Shown here: positions 11,039 to 17,419 of the stretch, piece by piece
Position numbering within the stretch: the first letter of the stretch is position 1
Layout of the letters: each line of letters begins with the position of its first letter
Source of the DNA: Paludibacteraceae bacterium
GTDB taxonomy: Bacteria; Bacteroidota; Bacteroidia; Bacteroidales; Paludibacteraceae
DNA length: 64,000 bases
Direction: 5' to 3'
Assembly (NCBI GenBank): GCA_024401535.1
Contig: JAKSKX010000005.1
Coordinates: 21,558-85,557, forward strand
The notes under the pieces: generated by a model
Database searches by the model: none
What the model saw: only the letters and a program-made list of their open reading frames with translations
Told to the model about the DNA's origin: nothing
Translations under genes and position numbers: made by a program

Positions 11039-11668
11039 TTAGAATAGAGGTTTCATCTCTATTTTTTCGAATGAGTAGCCTTGAGATTTCAGCCATTCGA
11101 TAGACTGTGGCAGTGCTGTCTTGAGTTTGTCAATGCTTTTCAGCGAATCATGAAATACGATAACAGATCCGTTTCGTGCATATTTTTTGACATTGTCGAA
11201 CACATCCTGCGCAGTCAGTTTTTTGCTATAGTCTCTGGTCACCACATCCCACATTATAATCCTGCGGGTTCTTCTTAGTATCAGGGCATGAATCTTTCTA
11301 AGCTGTCCGTGTGGGGGCCTGAAAAGATTCGAGTTTATTAGCTTGTCGGCCTCATATATGTTCTTGAAATAGTGCTGACTGCTAACCTTGAATGCTTGGA
11401 GATGGTTGAATGTGTGGTTTCCCACGGAATGCCCTTCGCTGAGAATGTTTGCGAAAAGTTCCGGGTGTTTCCTCACATTATCTCCCACGCAGAAGAATGT
11501 GGCTTTAATGTTGTATTTTCTCAAAGTCTCCAGAATCCATGGGTTAGCTTCGGGAATAGGTCCGTCGTCAAAAGTGAGATAAACCTTTTTCTCGCTGCTG
11601 TTTATTCTCCAGACAGACTCTTTGTACAAGAGGTGTCGGACGAATTCTGGAGGTTGTTCAATAAACAT
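11039..11668 (-). CDS. Polysaccharide deacetylase (NodB domain, CE4)
   Basis: A 209-aa protein. NodB motifs appear in order: TFDDGP (metal Asp and base, about residue 32), HTFNHL (metal His pair), RPPHGQ, a WDVVTRDY region, and VFHDS at the end. CE4 enzymes remove N-acetyl groups from peptidoglycan, chitin or cell-surface polysaccharide. There is no clear signal peptide, so it may act in the cytoplasm or be exported another way. The start overlaps the stop codon of the DUF2723 gene by one base (TAATG), so the two are translationally coupled, which suggests a shared envelope-glycan role. Confidence 0.88.
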   Translation of the reverse strand: MFIEQPPEFVRHLLYKESVWRINSSEKKVYLTFDDGPIPEANPWILETLRKYNIKATFFCVGDNVRKHPELFANILSEGHSVGNHTFNHLQAFKVSSQHYFKNIYEADKLINSNLFRPPHGQLRKIHALILRRTRRIIMWDVVTRDYSKKLTAQDVFDNVKKYARNGSVIVFHDSLKSIDKLKTALPQSIEWLKSQGYSFEKIEMKPLF

Positions 11669-14600
11669 TATCTCTTACTAAAATATTTGGCAAGCTCTCT
11701 GTAAAAGTCATTGACTGTCTGAGTGTTGGCATCAGAGTACTCTGTGTCTTCAGCTCTCTTGGCAGACTCGTTCAAAGAGTCGTACATGCTCCAGTACTGC
11801 GCAACATCGTTGGATGCGCTCTTCTTCTGATTCTCACTAAGCTTGTTGAACCAGTCTCTGTACTGCTTGCAAGTAGTAGTAATTTCATCGCGTAGAGCCT
11901 TGCCTTTTTCTATTTCGCCAAGACCAAGATACATGTTCGAGATACGAACATTTGAATAATCTGCGTACACATTATATGTCGGAAGCTCCTCCATGCACTT
12001 GTCAAGTACTGCAATTGCACTGTCTTTCTTGCCCTCTGCGATTAGGCCGTCAGCCAATCTTAGGAACATGTGTCGGAAAGTCTTACCCATTCTCATGGCA
12101 TTCTCATCCATGTATGTGTTAGGGTCTTTGACGTTACCCCAGGCAAACTTGTTCATCATGTTGTCATACATGATGTCTGTGTCGATTGCGTCAATTCTCT
12201 TGAATGGAGTCACGCGGTAGCCCATACCTTCAAGTCTTAGATAGCTGTAGTCTCCCATTACAGGCTTGCCGTTTTGGTCAACGAACTTTCTGCCGTTCTC
12301 GACTCTCTGCTCAACACTCTCGAACTCACTATAGCTTTCGCTTCCTACAGTGACAGCGAAGTATATAGGAGTCTTCCAGTCCTTGTTCGAGCGGATCAAG
12401 TCAAGAATGAACAAATCCTGCTTGCCAAGATAATTCTTTCCAGAGAAGTCTAAAACCATTGGCTTGATCTTCTTAACTCCGCCTGTAGTGTCTATGTCAT
12501 CAACTGTTGGTTTGAAACCGGCAGCGATTACAGCGTCATAGTCAACAGGAACGATAATCTTTTTTGTAGGAAGAATGTTGATGTTGTCTCTATATCCAAG
12601 ATTCTTGGACAAATTTGTGTTAAGCATGAACTCGAAGGCCTGATCGATAGTTAGTGATTCGAACTTGTCGTCGATGTAAACAACGTCAAGCTTTCCGTTA
12701 GAGTAGTCTGCAGACTTCAGTCCCATAGGAAGAGCCTTTGAATCGTATGCGTCGTTCTGCATTTGGTCAACATACCAGTCCATCTGTAGGTAAGAAAGGT
12801 TACCCACACGCTTGTCTGTTCCCTCGCCTTCTACCTCCTGGTTGTACCAAAGAGGGAAAGTGTCGTTGTCTCCGTTTGTGAATATGATACCCTGGCTTGG
12901 AATAGACCTCAAGTAGTTTGCACCGTAGTCTCTGCAAATGAATCTTCCGCTTCTGTCGTGGTCATCCCAGTTCTGAACGGCCAAAACAGTAGGAACTGAT
13001 GACGACATTGCCAATGCAATGACAGCGCAGATTTTCTTGTTAGAGATTATTTGGTTCAAAAGCTGAGCTATGTAAAGTACACCGAAGCCAATCCATATAC
13101 AGAACGCATAGAAACTACCTGCATACGCGTAGTCTCGTTCACGTGGCTGGTATGGTGTCTGGTTCAAATATACTACGATAGCAAGTCCAGTCATTACGAA
13201 CAACACCAAAGTAAGCCAGAAGCTCTGCATACCCTTCTTGCCTCTGCTGAATTGAGACAAGATACCAAAGATTCCCAAAATCAAAGGAAGGAAGTAGTAA
13301 GTGTTCCTACCTCTGTTCTCCTTCATAATATCAGGAAGTGACTCTTGGTCTCCAACCAATAGATTGTCAATGAAAGGAATACCCGAAATCCAGTTTCCGT
13401 TAGTTATCTCGCCATGTCCCTGAATGTCGTTTTGTCTTCCCACGAAGTTCCACATGAAGTATCTCCAGTACATGAATCCCACTTGGTATGTAAAGAAGAA
13501 CTGCATGTTGTCAGCCTGTGTCGGAGCCGCAATCTTTTTGCCGTTGTCAGCTCTGATTATGTTCTTGTCATTTACACCTCCCCAGCTCTTGTATGCCTTG
13601 ACATGACTCTGCTGTTTGCTATGCATACGAGGGAACAGCATCTGGAACTGAGACTGGTACTGGTATGTTTTCTTTGTGTCGTAAACAATGTACTTGTCAG
13701 CTTCGTTTTCGTTCTTCTTGATAGCCTTTGCATAAAGGTTGTAGCCTTCGTCGTAGGCAACTGTTCCCGAACGGGTTCTCTTGTATTCAGATGCATAGCT
13801 TTCTCCGTAAAGAAGCGGAGTGTCGCCGTACTGGTCACGGTTCAAGTAGCTCTTTAGTGCGAATACGTCGTCCGGAGAGTTCTGGTCCATTGTAGGATTA
13901 GCACACGAACGGATGATTAGCACTGCATAGGTAGAGTAGCCAAGAAGTATCACTGTCAAACAAATCATGATTGTGTTTAGCAATACTACAGGCTTCTTGA
14001 TTACATTTGAGTTCTGGCTGTAGAATAGGAATGCTGCCAATCCTATTGTAAGGACAATTCCTAGGAATATGTGTGTGCCAAAGAACGGAATGCCAAGCAG
14101 CACGACAGAAGCTACGAAGAAGGCAATCTGCTTTGTTGTTAGCTCATCTCCCTTGTTGAATGTAATATAGATGCCATAGATTAGGCAGGCAATCAATACT
14201 ACACTATATATTACAGTTCCTGTGTTGAAACTGCATCCAAGCGTATTTACAAAGAACAGTTCGAACCATCCTGCTGTAGTCACGAAACCTGGAACCACTC
14301 CATAAAGGATTACAGCCAAAAGGAAGCATGAGAAAATCAATGAATAGATGATTCCCTTTGTTGTTGTGTTCTTGTTCTTTCTGAAGTAGTAAACAAGTAC
14401 TAGCGCTGGAATTGAAAGCAGGTTCAAAAGGTGGACACCTATTGAAAGTCCCATCAAGTATGCAATAAGCACAAGCCAACGGTTTGCGTAAGGCTTGTCA
14501 GCAATATCCTCCCACTTCAATATTGCCCAGAACACCACGGCTGTAAACATTGAGGAAGAAGCATATACCTCAGCCTCGACTGCCGAGAACCAGAATGTGT

Positions 14601-15003
14601 CAGAGAAAGTGTATGCCAAAGCACCAATAACACCGCAACTCATGATTACGATTGTCTTGTTGCTTGACACTTCAAATCTGTCTTCGCAGATAGTTACGCG
14701 AACCATGTGTGTAATAGTCCAGAACAGGAACAGAATAGTCAGCGCACTCATTGTTGCCGAGAATATGTTCACCATTTTGGCTACTTCGCTTGCTTCACTT
14801 GCAAAAAGTATGAAGAAACGAGCCATCAACATAAAGAAAGGTGCTCCAGGCGGGTGTCCTATCTCCATTTTATCTGCGGTACTGATAAACTCTCCGCAGT
14901 CCCAAAAGCTTGCTGTCGGCTCTATCGTAAGCAGATAAACTACTAACGATATAGCAAAAACAACCCAACCAGTCAAGTTGTTGATAAACTGAAATCGTTT
15001 CAT
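11668..15003 (-). CDS. DUF2723 large membrane protein (glycosyltransferase-like)
   Basis: A 1111-aa protein. The N-terminal third has about ten membrane segments and begins with the family pattern VYLLTIEPTASFWDCGEFIS, then KMEIGHPPGAPFFMLMAR, where the acidic and glycine residues resemble the active loop of protein O-mannosyltransferases. More membrane segments lie at about residues 560-680. The C-terminal 400 residues are soluble, with NGDNDTFPLWYNQEVEG and TPR-like helices near the end. Members are universal in Bacteroidetes and are candidates for lipid-linked-sugar-dependent O-glycosylation in the periplasm; that role is inferred. A promoter lies just upstream. Confidence 0.85.
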   Translation of the reverse strand: MKRFQFINNLTGWVVFAISLVVYLLTIEPTASFWDCGEFISTADKMEIGHPPGAPFFMLMARFFILFASEASEVAKMVNIFSATMSALTILFLFWTITHMVRVTICEDRFEVSSNKTIVIMSCGVIGALAYTFSDTFWFSAVEAEVYASSSMFTAVVFWAILKWEDIADKPYANRWLVLIAYLMGLSIGVHLLNLLSIPALVLVYYFRKNKNTTTKGIIYSLIFSCFLLAVILYGVVPGFVTTAGWFELFFVNTLGCSFNTGTVIYSVVLIACLIYGIYITFNKGDELTTKQIAFFVASVVLLGIPFFGTHIFLGIVLTIGLAAFLFYSQNSNVIKKPVVLLNTIMICLTVILLGYSTYAVLIIRSCANPTMDQNSPDDVFALKSYLNRDQYGDTPLLYGESYASEYKRTRSGTVAYDEGYNLYAKAIKKNENEADKYIVYDTKKTYQYQSQFQMLFPRMHSKQQSHVKAYKSWGGVNDKNIIRADNGKKIAAPTQADNMQFFFTYQVGFMYWRYFMWNFVGRQNDIQGHGEITNGNWISGIPFIDNLLVGDQESLPDIMKENRGRNTYYFLPLILGIFGILSQFSRGKKGMQSFWLTLVLFVMTGLAIVVYLNQTPYQPRERDYAYAGSFYAFCIWIGFGVLYIAQLLNQIISNKKICAVIALAMSSSVPTVLAVQNWDDHDRSGRFICRDYGANYLRSIPSQGIIFTNGDNDTFPLWYNQEVEGEGTDKRVGNLSYLQMDWYVDQMQNDAYDSKALPMGLKSADYSNGKLDVVYIDDKFESLTIDQAFEFMLNTNLSKNLGYRDNINILPTKKIIVPVDYDAVIAAGFKPTVDDIDTTGGVKKIKPMVLDFSGKNYLGKQDLFILDLIRSNKDWKTPIYFAVTVGSESYSEFESVEQRVENGRKFVDQNGKPVMGDYSYLRLEGMGYRVTPFKRIDAIDTDIMYDNMMNKFAWGNVKDPNTYMDENAMRMGKTFRHMFLRLADGLIAEGKKDSAIAVLDKCMEELPTYNVYADYSNVRISNMYLGLGEIEKGKALRDEITTTCKQYRDWFNKLSENQKKSASNDVAQYWSMYDSLNESAKRAEDTEYSDANTQTVNDFYRELAKYFSKR

Positions 15004-15692: not shown

Positions 15693-16949
15693 TTATTTGA
15701 AAAGTTTCTTCAAATCCTCGACTTTGTCGGTCTTTTCCCAAGTGAAAAGTTCGACCTCTTTCTTGTATTCCTTGCCGAAAGAGTCTGTGAATGTTTTTGT
15801 TACAACCTTCGGCTCACGGCCAAGATGTCCGTATGAAGCAGTTTCCAAGTACTTCGGCTCGCGAAGTTTTAGTCTGTCCTCGATAGCTTTAGGGCGGAAA
15901 TCGAACAGTCCGCTTATTTGGATCTTTGTTGCGATTTCTCCGTCAGTAAGAGAAACAGTTGATGTTCCGTAAGTATTGATGTAAAGGTTCATAGGCTCGG
16001 CAACTCCGATAGCGTAGGCAACTTGAACAAGACACTCCTTAGCAATGCCTGCGGCTACAATGTTCTTTGCCAAGTGGCGAGCTGCGTAGGCTGCAGAACG
16101 GTCAACCTTGCTTGGGTCTTTGCCAGAGAAAGCGCCGCCTCCGTGTGCGCCCTTACCTCCGTATGTGTCAACAATGATTTTTCTGCCGGTCAAACCTGTA
16201 TCTCCGTGAGGACCGCCGATAACGAACTTTCCTGTAGGGTTTACGAACAGCTTGTAGTCGTTCTTGCTAAGCAGGTCTGCATAGACTTTGGAAATCTTTG
16301 CAACCTTTGGAAGTAGTATGTTCTTGACATCAGCTGTGATTTTATCGACCATCTTTTCGTCTGTATCGAACTCGTCATGCTGAGTGCTGACGACGATATC
16401 GGCGATTCTTTTCACTTTGTTGTCGTCTCCATATTCCACAGTAACCTGGCTCTTTGCATCCGGACGAAGGTAGGTCATTTCCTTTCCTTCCTTGCGAATG
16501 TCAGCAAGAACGCGAAGAATTGCGTGTGAAAGGTCAAGAGTTATAGGCATGTAATTTTCTGTTTCGTCAGTGGCATATCCGAACATCATGCCCTGGTCTC
16601 CAGCTCCCTGCTCCTCGATGTTTTCGCGCTCGACACCACGGTTGATGTCTGCACTTTGGCTATGTAGCGCAGAGAATATGCCGCAAGACTCTGCATCGAA
16701 CTTGTACTCTGACTTGGTGTAGCCAATCTTTGTGATTACTTCGCGAGCCACACGCTGATGATCGACTACAGCCGAACTCTTGATTTCGCCGGCTAGCACC
16801 ACTTGACCTGTTGTGACAAGTGTTTCGCAAGCTACCTTGGAATCCTTGTCTTGAGCAAGGTAGTTGTCCAAAATGGCATCGGAAATCTGGTCGGCCACTT
16901 TGTCTGGATGTCCCTCGGAAACACTCTCAGATGTAAAAAAGTAACTCAT
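15693..16949 (-). CDS. metK: S-adenosylmethionine synthetase
   Basis: A 418-aa enzyme making SAM from methionine and ATP. The start is the ATG at 16949 giving [20 protein letters not shown], the classical N-terminus. Other signatures are [32 protein letters not shown] and [16 protein letters not shown]. The frame is open further upstream to 17222, but that stretch contains the promoter and a structured leader, so it is not coding. The leader carries a SAM-II-like aptamer and an intrinsic terminator, so end-product control by SAM is likely. At 418 aa it is slightly longer than the usual 380-400. Confidence 0.96.
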
Positions 16950-16982
16950 AGTTTGTAATGATTTAACTATTAAATAAAAAAA

Positions 16983-17006
16983 CAGCTCCACCTTTTCGGC
17001 GTGCTG
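16983..17006 (-). terminator. Intrinsic terminator inside the metK leader (attenuator)
   Basis: On the minus strand CAGC-A-CGCC-GAAAA-GGTG-GA-GCTG folds into a compact hairpin followed at once by seven T. It lies about 25 bases before the metK ATG, so it can only act on metK itself. The outer 5' arm overlaps TGCAG (17008-17004), which can instead pair with CTGCA (17039-17035), giving a possible antiterminator. Confidence 0.75.
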
Positions 17007-17059
17007 CATCCATAAAATAATTAAAAAATGTCTTTGCAGTTGAGAAGCATGTTTCTCAT

Positions 17060-17106
17060 CTTTAGCATTTTTTATTGTGGTTGCAATCGCACAAATCCGT
17101 CCACGG
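17060..17106 (-). promoter_or_regulatory. SAM-II (SAM-alpha)-like riboswitch aptamer
   Basis: Read on the minus strand, the segment has CCGTGG, then GGATTTG, ATTGCA, CCAC and AAATGCTAAAG. This matches the order and conserved bases of SAM-II aptamers as I remember them from alphaproteobacterial metA leaders: a GUGG/CCAC stem P1, a loop with GAUUUG and UUGCA, an A-rich linker and a 3' GCUAAA that closes the pseudoknot. It lies just after the metK transcription start and before a terminator. Recognition is from memory of the family; a covariance search would decide it. Confidence 0.7.
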
Positions 17107-17118
17107 TGTTTTCGACTG

Positions 17119-17147
17119 CAAAGATACAACTTATTTTTTAATGCAAA
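17119..17147 (-). promoter_or_regulatory. metK promoter
   Basis: On the minus strand TTTG (17147-17144) and TATCTTTG (17126-17119) are separated by 17 bases, slightly shorter than usual. Transcription would start near 17113, giving a leader of about 164 nt before metK. Confidence 0.6.
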
Positions 17148-17419
17148 GAATTTTTGAAGAAATTTGTTGGCCATAATTTGTGTTCCAGTTTTTGATGTTC
17201 TTTTTATACAGTCAAATTGCAAAAATGAAATTTCAGTTTGCCTTTCTTTTAGTCTGGAATAAGTCCAATGATTCTAATTTTGGTTTTTCTCTTCTGTGAG
17301 TCTTTTGGTTTAATTTGTAAGAAAAAACGTTAGCAACGAATACTATTTTTATAGCCAACAAGTTTAAATTCATAAAAAAAGCAATTGTTGTCTAGTTTTG
17401 GGCTTTGGAACGTGTAGTT

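Follow-up and report, generated by a model that had tools for sequence, protein, structure and literature searches.

A SAM-II (long loop) aptamer and a probable intrinsic terminator as parts of a putative attenuator upstream of metK in a Paludibacteraceae bacterium

We analyzed a 64,000-nucleotide stretch of DNA (the window) from a Paludibacteraceae bacterium whose draft genome is 91.5% complete. On the minus strand, from position 17147 down to 15693, a promoter is followed by a SAM-II aptamer and a 6-bp hairpin; then come an A/T-rich stretch, a second hairpin with a run of seven T, and metK. The metK gene (15693-16949, minus) encodes a methionine adenosyltransferase of 418 amino acids, identified by a TIGR01034 match of 496.6 bits and by three S-AdoMet_synt domains; its ATG start codon lies at 16949-16947 and the start reads ATGAGT. 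The second open reading frame 3' of metK on the same strand (11668-15003, minus) encodes a protein of 1111 aa in which a TMEM260-like O-mannosyltransferase domain (PF11028) was recognized. The elements that an initial annotation had reported between 16950 and 17147, namely a promoter, the motifs GTGG, GGATTTG, TTGCA and CCAC, a hairpin and seven T, were all found within that interval.

The aptamer (17052-17110, minus) was identified by the Rfam covariance model RF01726, SAM-II long loop, with a score of 56.7 bits for a cut-off of 44 and an E value of 3.2e-8 for the entire 64 kb; the alignment spans the whole model (1-60). The initial annotation was right to propose a SAM-II aptamer in a Bacteroidota metK leader, and to place it far from the start codon, as 102 nt separate its 3' end from metK; the model it had named as a check, RF00521, was however not reported at its gathering score. 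This was the only RF01726 match in the genome at E <= 0.001, and no SAM-I riboswitch (RF00162) was found elsewhere in it (0 of 1 genome). P1 is formed by the strands GTGG (17101-17104) and CCAC (17077-17080), while GGATTTG occupies 17098-17092 and TTGCA 17086-17082. The conserved pseudoknot strand AAATGCTAAAG (17060-17070), which was read from the sequence and the RF01726 alignment, is presumably the SAM-binding core, from what we know of the family. The same alignment places the conserved core letters TTGCAACC and AAATGCTAAA in the window, which we take to be pseudoknot P2b and the SAM site, the pseudoknot itself being predicted by membership of the family. P2a is not formed in the window, where its pairs 1 to 3 read G-A, C-T and G-G, and a local 6-bp hairpin (TGAGAA/TTCTCA, 17041-17058) is predicted at the expected site of the P2a partner strand. 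Since P2a is lost, the affinity of this aptamer for SAM may be reduced. Its score is the lowest of six in the genus, the five congeners reaching 68.1-69.7 bits. We also observed an in-frame ATG (17068-17066) inside the conserved strand AAATGCTAAAG, and a 12-codon open frame, ATGAGAAACATG...TTTTAA, directly 3' of the aptamer (17021-17059, minus). Leader-peptide attenuation was rejected, as by eye the five congeners do not conserve the frame ATGAGAAACATG...TAA.

RF01726 matches above the cut-off were found in 46 of 61 genomes in a mixed set of relatives, and metK lay 3' of the aptamer on the same strand at 45 of these 46 loci, the remaining one (L008) being on a contig that ends before metK. The corresponding counts, which like the first include the genome of the window, were 225 of 300 genomes for the family, 163 of 247 for the order and 6 of 9 for the genus, where the three genomes without match are 64-78% complete. 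The loci fetched for comparison were the best-scoring among the matches listed, and 250 of 256 could be read as aptamer-metK leaders. L008, L047 and L112 were left out with no metK in the fetched DNA, together with L174, L187 and L194, in which the core pattern TTGCAACC...TGCTAAA is absent. The last three score above the RF01726 cut-off, do have metK and possibly represent aptamer variants. In L112 (G381:C269), from a genome of the order, a second SAM-II copy (match 291-349) precedes a non-metK reading frame on the plus strand (311-1699), whose motifs lead us to presume a MetH-like homocysteine methyltransferase. The core pattern was also present in 39 of 80 metK loci from public records, including Tenacibaculum and Winogradskyella, which we take to be genera of the Flavobacteriia.

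Covariation among the metK leaders of relatives, which the initial annotation had proposed to look for, was observed for P1 and for one pair of P2a, the other three lacking it. The 249 leaders compared contain 26 distinct pairs of P1 strands; all four inner pairs form, pair 3 varying between TA, AT and CG and pair 4 between GC and AT. For P2a, 184 distinct strand pairs were compared in a fixed register: pair 3 was formed in 96 of them against 74.2 expected (0 of 1000 permutations), and pairs 1, 2 and 4 showed no excess over permutations. No excess appeared in a free register either (79 of 500 permutations). Since only pair 3 covaries across the 184 strand pairs, we regard P2a as optional.

Upstream of the aptamer, TTTG (17144-17147, minus) and TATCTTTG (17119-17126, minus), spaced 17 nt apart, correspond to a -33 type box and to a -7 box of the form TAnnTTTG, and we take them to be promoter boxes of the Bacteroidetes type. 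TAnnTTTG occurs at most about 50 nt 5' of the aptamer in 226 of the 250 metK leaders, compared with 171 of 2500 shuffled sequences, an enrichment that agrees with the promoter announced before the aptamer. A sigma-70-like consensus scan of 16800-17400 produced 2 matches for 1.7 expected; the sole one on the minus strand lies at 17300-17271, not at the TTTG and TATCTTTG boxes. Over 9 bp, the sequence CTTTGCAGT (17123-17115, minus), at the -7 box, matches exactly the reverse complement of ACTGCAAAG (17040-17032, minus). This complementarity is likely due to chance, full transcription of both segments being improbable.

Between the aptamer and metK lies a probable intrinsic terminator, made of the hairpin CAGCACGCC-GAAAA-GGTGGAGCTG (16983-17006, minus; predicted energy -10.6 kcal/mol, or -12.8 kcal/mol with the flanking A/T pairs) and of the T7 tract (16976-16982, minus). 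The 25-nt terminator piece has a z score of -2.17, equalled by 8 of 200 shuffles. A strict-stem consensus scan of both strands of 16800-17400 returned no terminator site and missed this hairpin, in our reading because its stem has an internal loop. Leaders were compared with a fixed rule requiring at least five pairs, three contiguous closing pairs and at least six T of eight, and 246 of the 250 entered the count, four shorter than 30 nt being dropped. Terminators of -8 kcal/mol or below were found in 35 of the 246 leaders, window included, against 31 of 4920 shuffles, and terminators of -10 kcal/mol or below, the class of the window hairpin, in 21 leaders against 3 of 4920 shuffles. At -8 kcal/mol all six leaders of the window's genus (g1) were positive, so that the link drawn in the initial annotation between aptamer and terminator recurs throughout these leaders. 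Genus g21 gave 18 of 23 at this threshold (23 of 23 at -6 kcal/mol, where shuffles give 96 of 4920), followed by g15 (3/5), g57 (3/6), g10 (1/1) and g20 (1/4); the other 23 genera that the sample of the family comprised gave none, and leaders of other families 3 of 139. This clustering by genus indicates a lineage-specific platform, present in the genus of the window.

The covariance-model aptamer, metK, the hairpin with its T-tract and predicted folds that exclude one another are thus assembled at the locus, and we consider it probable that they constitute a SAM-responsive OFF switch acting by transcription attenuation upstream of metK. From the promoter boxes we infer that transcription would start just 5' of P1. 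When SAM is abundant, P1 and the pseudoknot would form on it soon after their synthesis, leaving the segment 17030-17001 free; the 3' part of this segment could then enter the hairpin 17006-16983, which together with the T7 tract would end transcription ahead of metK. When SAM is scarce, 17030-17001 would instead pair back onto the aptamer, destroying both aptamer and terminator, and metK would be transcribed. This anti-aptamer (17001-17030, minus) overlaps the 5' arm of the terminator, and in the absence of SAM it is predicted to pair with 17092-17066: GUGC (17092-17089) would face GCAC (17004-17001), UGCA (17085-17082) would face UGCA (17008-17005), CCA (17080-17078) would face UGG, and the A-rich strand with UG would face CAUUUUUU. 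The predicted fold-back excludes the aptamer and the terminator because it uses the loop, the P1 3' strand, the pseudoknot strand and the terminator 5' arm.

Folds of the growing transcript showed local structure first, then the fold-back onto the aptamer once 17030-17001 emerges, until the T-tract is made. With the transcript extended up to the terminator loop, the antiterminator fold has a z score of -2.63, equalled by 2 of 200 shuffles. At 16970 the antiterminator is predicted at -33.0 kcal/mol and P1 with the terminator at -31.4 kcal/mol; the latter combination reaches -22.5 kcal/mol if the loop and pseudoknot strands are left free, a value that excludes the energy of the pseudoknot and of the ligand, so that SAM would have to add about 10 kcal/mol or act kinetically. 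When the transcript is extended to 16949, the predicted minimum (-37.0 kcal/mol) holds the terminator and not the antiterminator. The model therefore needs the decision to be taken at the T-tract, as attenuation requires.

In all six leaders of the genus, folds up to the terminator loop contain 9-12 pairs between the aptamer and the arm or loop, compared with shuffle means of 3.0-5.5, and the six share a common antiterminator topology. The five congeners fall into two groups of near-identical sequences, so that the genus represents about three independent designs. The plain duplex between aptamer and anti-aptamer of the window (-18.1) does not exceed chance: 203 of 1000 shuffles of the downstream piece did as well, as did 43 of the 216 other aptamers. 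For the five congeners these figures were 85-110 of 500 shuffles and 6-14 of the 216 aptamers. Taken alone, the antiterminator of the window is only moderately better than chance. Over 40 leaders with a terminator the mean number of aptamer-arm pairs (5.18) equals that of shuffles (5.14), because 15 of the 23 g21 leaders show no such pairs, and a swap test on 20 terminator arms was not significant (-9.2 vs -8.95, 545 of 2000 permutations). By eye, many g21 leaders have, just 3' of the aptamer, a CTTGTG able to pair with the 5' arm of the terminator, which in this genus seems to use a different antiterminator. Outside the genus of the window, the terminator arm of L149 (family f9) forms with its own aptamer a duplex of -20.7 kcal/mol that beats the 19 other aptamers tested. 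In this leader (G424) the aptamer sequence GGAGAGATTT has a perfect antisense in AAATCTCTCC, the 5' arm of the terminator, and the duplex is the strongest of the 20 tested.

Complementarity between aptamer and leader was also observed beyond the leaders that carry a terminator. In 186 leaders, obtained by thinning 245 by leader similarity, the 5' half of the aptamer forms with its own leader a mean duplex of -15.7, compared with -13.48 after swapping (0 of 2000 permutations), a result that supersedes an earlier set of 60 leaders (own -15.45, cross -13.18). The 166 leaders without terminator gave -15.78 against -13.5 (0 of 2000 permutations). A second set, 29 leaders kept as new and distinct from the 39 public records with the pattern (L268 being skipped), gave -16.1 against -14.26 (0 of 5000 permutations). 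In these permutation tests kinship was handled by similarity thinning only, so that the remaining shared ancestry stays in the figures. For about one leader in three, the duplex with its own aptamer was among the best 10%. As an average over leaders, a downstream antisense segment thus covaries with the 5' half of the aptamer in Bacteroidota metK leaders. Whole-leader folds of the 246 leaders contain a mean of 22.4 pairs between the aptamer and the downstream region (16.7 in shuffles), with a mean energy z of -2.02 and 60% of leaders below -1.64. With 17.7 pairs in the window's genus and 7.9 in g21, the count falls below that of shuffles (22.6 and 11.7, respectively); in these two genera the terminator takes the arm, and the count is therefore contrary or uninformative.

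The covariation in the 166 leaders without terminator (0 of 2000 permutations) is one argument for translational control, on which many relatives lacking a terminator must rely and in which the segment freed by SAM would pair near the start codon, or the structure at the start would change, the hairpin and T being incidental or secondary. The low frequency of terminators in other families (3 of 139 at -8 kcal/mol) is another, and own leaders pair with the start region better than swapped ones (-7.15 vs -6.25, 0 of 2000 permutations, n=166). ATGGG starts are moreover associated with TCCC upstream (58/82 vs 27/84) and with CCCA (30/82, compared with 2/25 for ATGGC starts). However, the converse covariation is absent, GCCA accompanying ATGGC in 4 of 25 cases against 8 of 82, and the association may reflect shared ancestry, which permutations leave in. 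Start-codon pairing is partly supported as a general mechanism; without the converse covariation, we keep it only within the translational explanation and the broader reading of the platform given below. For the window itself translational control is unlikely: the hairpin and T7 are present, likewise in the five congeners, and the start, ATGAGT, pairs with the leader in an ordinary manner (z -0.4).

It is less probable still that the riboswitch is drifting and that, with P2a lost and SAM poorly bound, the terminator acts as a constitutive partial block setting metK expression. The missing P2a pairs 1-3, a window score that is the lowest of six in the genus and the weak antiterminator statistics would fit such a drift, whereas the core positions TTGCAACCAC and AAATGCTAAAG and P1 are intact and the covariance score exceeds the cut-off. 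The least credible explanation is the switch suggested by the initial annotation, in which TGCAG (17008-17004) alternates between the terminator 3' arm and CTGCA (17039-17035). Both sequences are present at these positions and are complementary, but their pairing is predicted at -26.9 kcal/mol, against -33.0 kcal/mol when the arm is paired with the aptamer. It lies wholly outside the aptamer, which can form alongside (P1 with this pairing, -25.9), and as it never touches the aptamer it provides no direct coupling to SAM. CTGCA:TGCAG was rejected as an antiterminator on these two grounds, its energy (about 6 kcal/mol worse) and its lack of coupling.

Attenuation by the anti-aptamer remains our preferred reading for the window, and it provides a model for metK feedback, open to test, in one family of the Bacteroidota. 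More tentatively, and with somewhat less than even confidence, we propose that Bacteroidota SAM-II aptamers may share an undescribed platform in which the aptamer 5' half has, at a short distance downstream, a diffuse antisense copy that coevolves with the aptamer. Freed by SAM, this segment would repress translation at the start codon in lineages without terminator, and would serve as terminator arm in the window's genus and in L017 and L149 (f9), g21 using another antiterminator; repeated moves between translational and transcriptional control would follow. Behind one aptamer and one gene, the 250 leaders make platforms with and without terminator comparable, which bears on how a regulatory mechanism changes under a constant sensor. 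The covarying antisense segment found in many relatives is a more interesting by-product than the switch of the window. No description of it was found in the literature listings searched or in passages of the open papers PMC2864571, PMC2258182, PMC1273637, PMC9373788, PMC10907184 and PMC12121620; the last, an RNA-seq survey of riboswitch transcription termination that includes Bacteroides, does not contain "SAM-II" in its main text.

The SAM-II type, the terminator mechanism and the long loops of Bacteroidetes are already known. The initial annotation had set a terminator-linked SAM-II apart from the usual action of the class on translation, but such terminators were proposed in 2005 (PMC1273637) and 2007 (PMC2258182); a SAM-II terminator platform in the window's family is, as far as we searched, undescribed but expected. 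In Weinberg et al. 2010 (PMC2864571), a table lists the SAM-II long loop for Bacteroidetes and marine sequences; the window resembles this RF01726 element in its whole-model match (1-60) and differs in that P2a is not formed. An intrinsic terminator was the first mechanism proposed for SAM-II, according to Corbino et al. 2005 (PMC1273637), and terminators were counted as the commonest SAM-II mechanism in alpha- and beta-proteobacteria in PMC2258182 (2007). The alphaproteobacterial metA element (RF00521), as described in PMC1273637, also has a probable start a few nt before P1, then the aptamer, and, after P2 but ahead of the open reading frame, a putative intrinsic terminator, the whole being proposed as an OFF switch; the window differs from it by its gene, metK, its long-loop variant and its Bacteroidetes-type promoter. 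For metZ of Sinorhizobium meliloti, Scheuer et al. 2022 (PMC9373788) predict that on binding of SAM a terminator of the Rho-independent type forms and a short RNA results. Likened by this description, the two systems differ in phylum and gene and share a predicted SAM-induced terminator.
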